A stretch of DNA of 64,000 nt from Pseudoxanthomonas daejeonensis (GTDB taxonomy: Bacteria; Pseudomonadota; Gammaproteobacteria; Xanthomonadales; Xanthomonadaceae). The stretch covers positions 124,001 to 188,000 of the forward strand of contig NZ_PDWN01000009.1 of NCBI RefSeq assembly GCF_010093205.1, given 5' to 3'. The position numbers were made by a program, and so were the translations under genes. The notes under the pieces are model-generated. The model did not search any database. It was given only the letters and a program-made list of their open reading frames with translations, and was not told the DNA's origin. Shown here one piece after another: positions 49,759 through 52,775 of this stretch (position 1 is its first letter; each line of letters starts with the position of its first letter).

Positions 49759-50517
49759 CTACTCCGCGTCCGGCTCGAGCACCGGCAGCAGTCCGCGCCG
49801 GCGCCGTGCGGCCAGCGCACTGCCCAGCCAGGCCCCCAGCAGGGACCGGTACTCCGAACGGCTGCGTCCGCCGCTCAGGCCGTGGTCGGCATTGCGGATC
49901 TTGCGCACGGTCAGCGCCTGCGCGCGCGGGAATGCGACCTGGAAGCTCCCGGACACGCCCTCCGGCAGCAGCTCGTCGTGGCCGGACCAGACCAGCAGCA
50001 CCTCGCCTTCGAACGCCGCACACGCTGCCAGCGCCTGGTCCGTATCGCGATCGCGCCTGGAATGCCGGTACGCCGCCAGCCCAGCGTCGTCCAGCGACTC
50101 CTTGGAACGGTCCCACCACTGGTCCGGATACAGCGCCGGCACCCGCAAAGCGAGCCAGCGTACCGGCCGCTGCGTGGTCAGCAATGCGGCCGGCCAGCCG
50201 CCGAAGCTGCTGCCGACGACCGCGATCGCATCGCCGTCCACGTTCTGCATCGCGGCAAGTGAATCGCAGGCATCGACCGCATCGGCCAGGCTGCCGCGCA
50301 AGGTCACCTGCGCGCGTTGGTCCGCCGTGGCGCGGTGCCCGTGCAGGTCGTAGTCCAGGCATGCGAAACCGGCCGCCGCCGCTGCCATCATCGGCCCGGC
50401 CATGTCCTGGCGGCTACCGGTCCAACCATGGATGAACAGCGCGCCCGGGACGCGCGCCTGCTGCACGCGCGTGCCCTGCAGGCCGGATCCTGCGATCGCG
50501 ACCCTTTCGACCTGCAT
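49759..50517 (-). CDS. Alpha/beta hydrolase
   Basis: A 252-aa alpha/beta-hydrolase-fold enzyme. Oxyanion region ALFIHGWTGSRQD, nucleophile elbow AVVGSSFGGWPAALL (GSSFGG), acid in VWSGHDELLP and catalytic His in IRNADHGLSGG. It is an esterase- or acylaminoacyl-peptidase-like cytosolic enzyme. ATG 50517 has AAGGA upstream; ATG 50535 six codons earlier is equally in frame. It is linked to the isochorismatase gene in one unit. Confidence 0.88.
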   Translation of the reverse strand: MQVERVAIAGSGLQGTRVQQARVPGALFIHGWTGSRQDMAGPMMAAAAAGFACLDYDLHGHRATADQRAQVTLRGSLADAVDACDSLAAMQNVDGDAIAVVGSSFGGWPAALLTTQRPVRWLALRVPALYPDQWWDRSKESLDDAGLAAYRHSRRDRDTDQALAACAAFEGEVLLVWSGHDELLPEGVSGSFQVAFPRAQALTVRKIRNADHGLSGGRSRSEYRSLLGAWLGSALAARRRRGLLPVLEPDAE

Positions 50518-50702
50518 GCCAGCAACATCCTTCATGACAGGAAAGTCCGCGGGGAAGACCCGATGTTCTTCGCATGCGCCCCGCCACGAAGGCGTGAAGC
50601 CGGCGGCGTGGCTGGTCCGCCATTTACTCCACGCTCGCACGGCTTTGATCGTGTGCTGACGCCGCTGCGCGCACTGTTGCAGCACTCCTTGAGAGAACGA
50701 CC

Positions 50703-50978
50703 ATGAAGCCAGAACGAAAGGACGCGCCAGCTTCGCAGGCACCGCCACCCCAGGTTAGCCATAAGGCTGGCGACAAGGCTGGCGATGCCGCCGCGCCGAC
50801 GCACGGAAGCGTGGACGCCGACACCGCGCAGAACCGCGGCTACAACCAGCGCGGCTACGGCAAGGGCGGCAAGCTGGGGCGCGGCGAACCCGACGGCACG
50901 CCGGAACGCGACGGCAGCACGCAGCCGGACTTCGGCCAGGCCGACGCCTTGGGCGACGGTCCGGACACCACGCGTTGA
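50703..50978 (+). CDS. Small hydrophilic protein (91 aa), stress-protein-like
   Basis: Not recognised. 91 aa, Gly/Asp/Ala-rich with no hydrophobic core: GYNQRGYGKGGKLGRGEPDG near residues 46-65 and charged tail. A disordered hydrophilin-like composition is apparent. GAGAGAACGACC precedes ATG. It lies divergent from the alpha/beta hydrolase gene and just upstream of the kinase-like gene. Role unknown. Confidence 0.65.
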   Translation: MKPERKDAPASQAPPPQVSHKAGDKAGDAAAPTHGSVDADTAQNRGYNQRGYGKGGKLGRGEPDGTPERDGSTQPDFGQADALGDGPDTTR

Positions 50979-51064
50979 CGCGCGCGGTTGCACGCGACAT
51001 GCCCACGCATCCGACACCCGCGCGCGCGAAGTCCTCCCGCCCTACTGCAAAGGACGAGCGTGGA

Positions 51065-52078
51065 ATGCATGGTGCCTCGCGACTTCCAGGCCTGCGCATC
51101 GACCACTACAACCTGCTCGTACCCGATCCGGACGGGGAAGGCTTCCTGGGCGACCGCGCGAGCCAGACCGCGTTCCGCGAACTGCTTGAGACCGCGCGCC
51201 AGCATCACCGCACCGGCAAGGATCCGTTCGGCAAGACCCCGTCGACCGAGCTTGGAAAGAAGGAGATCGACCTGGTCCTGGTCGGCGGCGATCCCGATGC
51301 CGCGCATCTCGTGCACCTGGCCGTGGAGGAGTACGCACGCCGGCTCGTGCACGTGGTGCAGGTCTTCCTCGCCCAGCCGCAATGGAAGGGCGTGGAGAAG
51401 ATCGTGCTCGGCGGCGGCTTCCCCGACCACGAGGCCGGCGGACTGGCGACGCGCCGCGCGGTCTGCCTGCTGGAGCATGCGGATGTGGACGTGTCCCTGC
51501 ACCCGCTGCGACACGACGCCGACGAGGGCGGCCTGCTGGGCTGGGTGCCACTGTTGCCGCGCACGCACCGCGACCGCGCCGCGTTCCTCGCGGTGGACGT
51601 GGGCGGGACCAACATCCGCTGTGGCATCGTCGAACACCGCCTTGGCAAGCACCCGGATGGCGGCAAGGCGCGCGTGCTGGAAGTACTCAAGTGGCGCCAC
51701 GCCGACGATGCGCCGTCACGCAACGAAGCGGTCATCCGCCTCGCGGCCATGCTCAACGGCCTGACCGCGCAGGCGCGCACGCGCGGGATCGACCTCGCCC
51801 CGTTCGTCGGCGTGGCCTGCCCGGGCCAAGTGGAAGCCGACGGAACCCTGTCGCACGGCGCGCAGAACCTCCCGGGCGACTGGGAGCAGCCGTTCAAGCT
51901 GCCCGAGGCGCTCGCCGCACACCTCGATCCGATCGACGGGAACCCGCCGCAGGTCGTCCTGCACAACGATGCCGTGGTCCAGGGCCTGAGCGAGCACCGG
52001 CGCATGCGCAAGACCAGGCGGTGGGCGGTGCTGACCATCGGCACCGGGCTGGGCAATGCGAGCTACAGCAATCGCTGA
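51065..52078 (+). CDS. Circularly permuted ROK-family kinase-like protein
   Basis: A 337-aa protein with all main ASKHA/ROK motifs but in an unusual order. Motifs that end a normal ROK kinase come first: TELGKKE (residues 61-67, the ExGH position with Lys for His), a long helix, IVLGGG (113-118) and GGLLGW (155-160). Motifs that normally start it follow: VDVGGTNIRCGIV (177-189), GVACPGQV, NLPGDWEQP, catalytic-type NDA (301-303) and TIGTGLGNASY (324-334), at which the protein ends. Sugar or polyphosphate-glucose phosphorylation is inferred. ATG 51065 follows AAAGGAC; the frame is open to TTG 50975. Confidence 0.8.
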   Translation: MHGASRLPGLRIDHYNLLVPDPDGEGFLGDRASQTAFRELLETARQHHRTGKDPFGKTPSTELGKKEIDLVLVGGDPDAAHLVHLAVEEYARRLVHVVQVFLAQPQWKGVEKIVLGGGFPDHEAGGLATRRAVCLLEHADVDVSLHPLRHDADEGGLLGWVPLLPRTHRDRAAFLAVDVGGTNIRCGIVEHRLGKHPDGGKARVLEVLKWRHADDAPSRNEAVIRLAAMLNGLTAQARTRGIDLAPFVGVACPGQVEADGTLSHGAQNLPGDWEQPFKLPEALAAHLDPIDGNPPQVVLHNDAVVQGLSEHRRMRKTRRWAVLTIGTGLGNASYSNR

Positions 52079-52253
52079 GCGCGGGTGACGTTTGCGGCCG
52101 GGACAAAGGGGCCTGCAGGATCGCCGCGGAGTCCGGCTTGCTCGCGCACGCTGGCATCGTCCAGCGGGTCCACGCGCGCATCTGTCCTGCCGCCGCAGAG
52201 ACTTGCGTAGTACTCAGGCATTGCCGCATCCGCCATCGTCCCCGGAGCACGAC

Positions 52254-52775
52254 ATGCCCGAGTTCAACGTCAACGTCCATCGGCACGATCCGTACAAGAC
52301 CTACAAGTTCCGCCTGATCTGGGACGGTCGCGTGGTCGCCGGCATCTCCAAGGTCAGCGCCTTGCGGCGAACCACCGACGTCGTCACCCACCGCAGCGGC
52401 AACGACCCGTCGTCCACGCGCAAGTCGCCGGGCGCCATCCAGTTCGAGCCGATCACCATCGAGCGTGGCGTGACCCATGACCTGGAATTCGAACGCTGGG
52501 CCAACCGGGTCTGGAACCTGCAGGCTGCAAGGGGCGCCGAAGTCGCGCTCAAGGACTTCCGCAAGGACGTGCGGCTGGAGCTGTGCAACGAAGCCGGCCA
52601 GCTGGTGCTGGCCTACAACATCTATCGCTGCTGGCCCTCGGAAATCGAAGTGCTGCCGGAACTGGACGCCAACCACGGCGTCACCGCGATCCAGCGCCTG
52701 GTGCTGCAGAACGAAGGCTGGGAGCGCGACACCGAAGTGGCCGAGCCGGCCGAGCCGGGCGACAACGCCGCCTGA
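52254..52775 (+). CDS. Orphan contractile tail-tube (gp19-like) protein
   Basis: A 173-aa protein of the phage/contractile-injection tube family (T4 gp19-like). It starts MPEFNVNVHRHDPYKTYKFR, with IWDGRVVAGISKVSALRRTT and VVTHRSGNDPSSTRKSPGA, then ITIERGVTHDLEFERWANRV and YNIYRCWPSEIEVLPELDAN. Such proteins form the inner tube of tails and of extracellular injection systems. No sheath, baseplate, spike or ATPase gene is within the window. CCGGAG lies upstream of the ATG. It could be a domesticated tube or an orphan cargo-related protein. Confidence 0.85.
   Translation: MPEFNVNVHRHDPYKTYKFRLIWDGRVVAGISKVSALRRTTDVVTHRSGNDPSSTRKSPGAIQFEPITIERGVTHDLEFERWANRVWNLQAARGAEVALKDFRKDVRLELCNEAGQLVLAYNIYRCWPSEIEVLPELDANHGVTAIQRLVLQNEGWERDTEVAEPAEPGDNAA

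Follow-up and report, generated by a model that had tools for sequence, protein, structure and literature searches.

The window, the whole 64,000-nucleotide stretch of DNA that was analyzed, includes a gene whose product, as strongly supported by profile comparisons and structural models, is a naturally circularly permuted ROK-type protein, the chain of which has been broken and rejoined at one point. The permutation was proposed in a sequence-only reading of the same DNA and is borne out by swapped matches in hhalign, tiling of known folds by the two halves, a shuffle control and 105 homologues. Alignments and models place the chain break between the GTGxG and ExGH segments, where the new ends lie, and the old ends, just before DxGGT and just after GLLGW, are joined by a short linker. 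We consider it quite probable that the protein is a ROK-type sugar kinase-like protein that arose by a single permutation event, that it binds its acceptor in a different way and that the gene may be linked to the EcfG stress response in many alphaproteobacteria. Motifs and fold suggest that the protein would act in the manner of a ROK kinase, but it is classed here as a permuted ROK variant, not as an ordinary member of the family, because the lobe order, the ExGH motif and the zinc cysteines fail the ROK signatures. The hinged fold of two lobes is common to hexokinase, actin and Hsp70, and a stable permutant occurring in nature would reveal chain connections that are dispensable for domain closure.

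Gene extent and order of the motifs

As first delimited, the gene spans positions 51065-52078 on the forward strand and encodes 337 residues without internal stops in the translation. This version opens one residue ahead of an invariant His, and an in-frame ATG is present at position 50999. The latter is probably the start, yielding a product of 359 amino acids, because annotated relatives begin 11-17 residues ahead of the matched core; sequence comparison also revealed a D-x-R-G-x-H segment just upstream of the core that is common to close relatives. Residue numbers in Table 1 follow the 337-residue version.

The swapped order of ROK motifs that had been read from the sequence was confirmed, as all of the motifs quoted there occur in the order given and in one frame. 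In the 337-residue product, VDVGGTNIRCGIV lies at residues 177-189, NDA at residues 301-303 and TIGTGLGN at residues 324-331, followed by six further residues and the stop codon. Homologues were recovered as 109 ORFs, which represent 105 distinct cores with the window gene counted in. A search among these for the same motif order found it in every distinct core (105/105), with the chain terminating no more than 47 residues past GTGxG; the tail beyond this motif comprises 7-47 residues, with a median of 12 in the 105 members.

The sequence-only reading had itself raised the prospect that a sequencing error had fused two frames. The probability of such an artefact, be it a fusion of frames or of genes through faulty sequencing or assembly, is negligible. 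A frame error is excluded because the 109 homologous ORFs share the single-frame order, which is uninterrupted in the 105 distinct cores. Moreover, 205 plasmid records match the query, among them 111 from Rhizobium and 79 from Sinorhizobium, and 204 of the 205 cover at least 80% of it in one place. Both halves also are under purifying selection: dN/dS values for the window gene against six relatives were 0.24-0.36 for the first half and 0.21-0.33 for the second half, which speaks against an accidental join.

Table 1. Features of the permuted gene, in positions of the window
Feature	Positions	Strand	Basis
Whole gene, likeliest extent, 359 aa	50999..52078	+	In-frame ATG and residues conserved upstream of the invariant His
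First lobe of the chain, residues 1-168; counterpart of the C-terminal lobe of ordinary ROK proteins	51065..51568	+	hhalign and fold matches
Last lobe of the chain, residues 169-337; counterpart of the N-terminal lobe of ordinary ROK proteins	51569..52075	+	Pfam ROK profile 2-141; 2yhw match
His-2	51068..51070	+	105/105 distinct members have a His among core positions 1-3
SRLPGLRID, residues 5-13, degenerate ExGH site	51077..51103	+	Aligned with polyphosphate glucokinase TELGHLEID
TELGKKE, residues 61-67, not ExGH	51245..51265	+	TELGKK in 1/105 members; alignment position
IVLGGG, residues 113-118, nucleotide-side glycine motif	51401..51418	+	G116-G118 invariant in 41/41
GLLGW, residues 156-160, last segment of the ROK C-terminal lobe	51530..51544	+	Alignment with GvrGAA, where ROK proteins end
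VDVGGTNIR, phosphate-1 loop	51593..51619	+	D178, G180, G181 and R185 invariant in 41/41
HNDA with presumed catalytic base Asp-302	51962..51973	+	Invariant in 41/41
GTGLGN, phosphate-2 loop, near the chain end	52040..52057	+	GTGxGN in 104/105

Profile and fold comparisons of the two halves

A profile of the permuted family was assembled from 41 of the 86 recovered members, each less than 82% identical to the others, and was compared by hhalign with two canonical profiles. The first contained 29 ROK proteins (30 loci, one of which was dropped for lack of a long match), and the extended set of 41 added 12 proteins from polyphosphate-glucokinase searches (14 loci, two without a motif match). With the 29 ROK proteins, the permuted profile in its native order produced two matches, of positions 174-337 on 7-146 (E 1.7e-5) and of positions 62-165 on 207-303 (E 6.1e-5); when the halves were re-ordered, a single colinear match of 282 columns was obtained (E 1.1e-8). 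The extended set behaved likewise, with positions 172-339 on 5-148 (E 2.3e-12) and 62-169 on 203-303 (E 3.4e-5) in the native order and a single colinear alignment of 283 columns (E 2e-16) after re-ordering. Thus, the ROK family trait in which the N-lobe precedes the C-lobe fails in the window protein, as the two matches are swapped.

The first half might instead be an unrelated helical domain fused ahead of a lone ROK N-terminal lobe, in which case IVLGGG and GLLGW would be chance resemblances. The Pfam ROK profile (PF00480) is compatible with this possibility, as the first half alone elicited no match even at E 10. In the complete 337-residue protein, the best stretch ran from residue 175 to 336 on positions 2-141 of the profile, which has 294, and scored 26.7 bits (E 4.8e-6), above the cut-off of 22.9; by itself, the second half fell short of this cut-off at 21.6 bits. 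In addition, the first half produced no significant match to 10 PPGK-like sequences alone (E 0.05), in which the C-lobe is very short. The case for the C-lobe therefore rests on profile-profile comparison and fold, as Pfam misses the first half alone. In hhalign, the first half matched the C-half of ROK proteins with E 2.3e-6 versus E 0.5 for the N-half. It scored 43.1 against the canonical ROK C-half, compared with a mean of 13.9 and a maximum of 23.2 in 60 column shuffles, and the first half when reversed scored 12.1. These values, together with the ranking of fold matches described below, render an unrelated domain very improbable. A genome-wide Pfam ROK search of the same genome omitted the window gene, unlike the direct Pfam scan, which is taken to reflect the loose first look of that search.

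The AlphaFold model of the whole protein has a pLDDT of 90.7 and a pTM of 0.88. For this model, Foldseek, which aligns in sequence order, gave hexokinases as its top matches, with ROK kinases, Hsp70-type proteins and exopolyphosphatases intermixed; that ROK chains do not stand out by themselves here counts against the ROK reading. The 20 best VIA rows for the whole model were ROK-type and lay on model residues 167-337 (Z 12.3 to 9.9), with CoaX in row 21. The 2yhw structure matched the second half with Z 12.3, 147 aligned residues and an rmsd of 2.3. Chains that are labelled less clearly in the Foldseek and VIA lists presumably are ROK proteins.

When modelled alone, the first half had a pLDDT of 79.1, with residues 1-6 and 151-168 poorly predicted. 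The top 8 of the 50 Foldseek rows listed were ROK-type (E 0.025-0.052), and the top 11 of the 50 VIA rows listed also were ROK-type (Z 9.3-7.1), the next being a pantothenate kinase at 7.0. Taken singly these matches are weak, as an unrelated domain would entail: none of 605 Foldseek matches reached E ≤0.001, the best being 0.025. In VIA, Z 8 was reached by 5 of 1000 chains, pantothenate kinases trailed by no more than about 2 Z units, and according to the guidance of VIA itself unrelated models commonly attain best Z values of 7-8. In some rows for the first half, its opening residues, which are poorly predicted, are paired with the other lobe; rows that start at model residue 7-9 sit wholly in the C-terminal lobe. 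The fold case nevertheless is convincing because, within individual chains, the matches of the two halves meet at a single point. Thus, VIA tiled 6q27 with model residues 173-337 on 2-144 and 7-155 on 143-280, 7p9l with 172-337 on 0-142 and 9-155 on 141-293, and 2aa4 with 172-337 on 1-141 and 9-168 on 141-286. The sequence-only reading had staked its proposal on the first 165 residues resembling the ROK C-terminal subdomain; the profile comparisons and models indicate that the first half does match, and is homologous to, the C-terminal lobe of ROK proteins.

Active site and probable activity

The Asp of ND is the catalytic base in ROK kinases. DxGGT is present in 99 of the 105 members, with GGS in the exceptions displayed; HNDA occurs in 93 and HNDG in 12, and GTGxGN in 104. 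Among the DxGGT, ND and GTGxG motifs, T182 is the sole residue that is not invariant in the 41 sequences of the profile. Retention of the phosphate loops and of the presumed catalytic Asp leads us to infer that the window protein is an active kinase, and it probably is an enzyme that phosphorylates a sugar or like molecule. The lobes would close over one active site in which DxGGT and GTGxG supply the phosphate loops, the Asp of HND acts as base and GGG serves the nucleotide. Most likely, the hydroxyl group of a sugar or of a comparable small molecule would receive a phosphate from ATP or polyphosphate.

ExGH in ROK kinases binds the sugar and zinc. Neither ExGH nor the zinc-cysteine motif CxCGxxGC (CxCG) is present in any of the 105 members. 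TELGKKE had been interpreted as ExGH with Lys in place of His, which proved wrong: TELGKK occurs in one of the 105 members and is aligned immediately ahead of the segment 'GDxxA' in ROK proteins. In hhalign with the 10 PPGK-like sequences, the ExGH position instead aligns with R-L-P-G at residues 6-9. The Variovorax members have E-L-P-S at this position, within RELPSVxV; thus the Glu is kept in some members and the His is lost. As ExGH and the zinc-cysteine motif are gone, the acceptor probably is bound unlike the sugar in ordinary ROK kinases.

The window protein shares both lobes, DxGG(T/S), ND, GTGxG, GGG and the predicted lobe fold with ROK sugar kinases (PF00480), including the N-acetylmannosamine kinases 2yhw and 6q27 and the glucokinase 3vgk, but differs in its swapped lobes, the lack of ExGH and CxCGxxGC, and a chain that ends shortly past GTGxG. 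The nearest group with canonical order in the N-lobe tree described below, with moderate support, comprises glucokinases that use polyphosphate or ATP together with short ROK proteins of the PPGK-like type (1woq; L147, L148, L157-L164). This group provides the strongest profile match to the N-lobe (E 2.2e-14 in hhalign for the 10 PPGK-like sequences alone) and likewise lacks the zinc cysteines, but has the usual lobe order, keeps ExGH or ExAH, and has a much shorter C-lobe. The window protein scored 21.1 bits with the NCBIfam polyphosphate glucokinase model (NF045942), for which the cut-off is 250. Three short ROK proteins near the polyphosphate glucokinases (L147 1474-2229, L148 and L162) have ELAHH replacing ELGH, and the genomes of L147 and L148 (G435 and G387, respectively) also carry a permuted gene.

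The two-lobed fold is shared too with ROK repressors of the Mlc/NagC type (1z05, 5f7p), which carry an N-terminal DNA-binding domain. By analogy, the permutation may be real and the protein a nucleotide- or sugar-binding sensor or regulator and not an enzyme. The missing ExGH and zinc motifs in all 105 members are compatible with a non-catalytic protein, as are two observations discussed below, the lack of a conserved metabolic neighborhood and the occurrence of a stress-type promoter motif in 14 loci of a mostly alphaproteobacterial set of 30. We regard this reading as unlikely, yet clearly less so than an unrelated first domain: the phosphate loops and presumed catalytic Asp are kept throughout, and Pfam finds no DNA-binding domain in the 337-residue version. 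Furthermore, L157 and L158, which are annotated as polyphosphate--glucose phosphotransferases, also are without CxCG, and therefore a missing zinc motif does not by itself imply that activity is lost.

No description of a permuted ROK protein was found in the portions available of the literature searched, which was mostly open-access. In the parts consulted, five papers treat fold groups, a segment swap in ADP-dependent glucokinase, glutathione synthetase, an ATP-grasp protein and a clustering benchmark, and do not mention a permuted ROK protein (PMC1079889, PMC2213659, PMC2876114, PMC7701253, PMC1976428).

Origin, distribution and genomic context

A tree of the N-lobe alone, which was unrooted, was constructed with 47 rows: 15 of the 41 permuted sequences, the 12 from polyphosphate-glucokinase searches and 20 of the 29 ROK proteins. 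The 15 permuted rows formed one group with 100/100 support on a long branch, and a branch with moderate support (88/84) united this group with seven PPGK-like rows. Two of the 12, L149 and L152, which have zinc cysteines, grouped with ordinary ROK proteins. The tree suggests a single permutation as the likeliest history, in the part of ROK that lies towards the polyphosphate glucokinases. When a half profile was searched against 299 genomes, no permuted gene scored weaker than E 6.7e-72, and three canonical ROK genes were recovered at 3e-6 to 9e-6; across this wide gap no intermediate between permuted and ordinary ROK was found in the 299 genomes.

At least 536 stretches in the genome collection encode near-full-length relatives, of which the best 80 were kept. 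Relatives are present in 6 of 299 genomes sampled across the order and in 21 of 398 sampled across the phylum, with the source genome of the window included in each count. Annotated relatives are labelled 'ROK family protein', 'glucokinase' or 'hypothetical protein', and the family, which is found in many soil and plant-associated proteobacteria, may have a substrate other than its annotated name implies. Residues 173-337 only are matched, in two pieces, at 301441-301939 of NZ_CP082162.1, a second plasmid of Bradyrhizobium sp. 195, and perhaps represent a decayed copy. A phage or viral origin was considered and rejected, as no relative was confirmed in viral contigs and none was matched in phage records.

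Upstream regions were examined in 30 loci from named alphaproteobacterial records, genomes of the same phylum but of a class other than that of the window, and one record labelled Roseateles. The strict pattern GGAAC-N16-17-CGTT was present in 9 of the 30 (0.26 expected) and in none of 49 other loci; a looser pattern occurred in 10 of the 30 (about 1.5 expected) and in 5 of the 49 (about 1.0 expected, at scattered distances). GGAAC-N15-18-NGTT, a pattern chosen after the strict and looser results, was located within 250 bases upstream of the core in 14 of the 30 loci versus 0.52 expected from a background of all flanking DNA and not promoters alone. When the loci were clustered at 75% identity, 8 of 15 clusters had one. 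In Rhizobium, Sinorhizobium and Phyllobacterium (L143, L145, L146, L205-L207), GGAAC-N16-17-CGTT sits about 106-120 bases ahead of the core. We take motifs of this GGAAC-N-CGTT type to be the EcfG promoter consensus. The observed motif suggests that in many alphaproteobacteria the gene may be part of the EcfG general stress response, and it provides a testable lead to function in rhizobia. Near the window gene no EcfG-type motif was found, nor was a sigma-70-like promoter found in 50500-52400.

The gene adjoins otsB in Rhizobium and in the record labelled Roseateles, an association that is not general, and an OtsB-like match is near the gene in one Hyphomicrobium locus (L078). A peptidase of the osmoprotectant NAGGN system is nearby in Sinorhizobium meliloti, and Ku/LigD are nearby in some loci. 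From the motif and from the otsB, NAGGN and Ku/LigD neighbors, we infer a role in stress in those organisms; the organism of the window displayed no such sign. A fuller account, in which the permutant was fixed once and spread through alpha-, beta- and gammaproteobacteria, lost ExGH, gained the N-terminal invariant His and became a kinase with a new acceptor for osmotic or general stress metabolism, is tentative and somewhat less probable than not. Nothing on the function of the rhizobial gene was found in the accessible portions of the literature searched, PMC11387232 included, in which the locus tags used were tentative.

Operon context was rejected as a clue to function, as no neighbor cluster in the 109 loci extends beyond 6 of 33 lineages, the latter defined by 75% identity of the family protein. 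The top clusters, named from sequence starts, resemble solute-binding and ABC-transporter proteins of large families and lie at varying distances. Nine neighbors of the window gene were scanned, and the seven with Pfam matches (DUF1398, isochorismatase, alpha/beta hydrolase, T4 gp19-like tail tube, LD-carboxypeptidase, 3-demethylubiquinone methyltransferase type and Sel1) include none for sugar metabolism. The T4 gp19-like phage tail tube gene (PF06841, E 1.9e-36) is directly downstream at 52254-52775 (+), and none of the other eight neighbors scanned has a phage-type Pfam match. A small glycine-rich ORF of 91 amino acids without a Pfam match lies just upstream at 50703-50978 (+). The same genome also encodes an ordinary glucokinase on contig C11 (Pfam Glucokinase, 317.3 bits), and the window gene therefore is not its sole sugar kinase.
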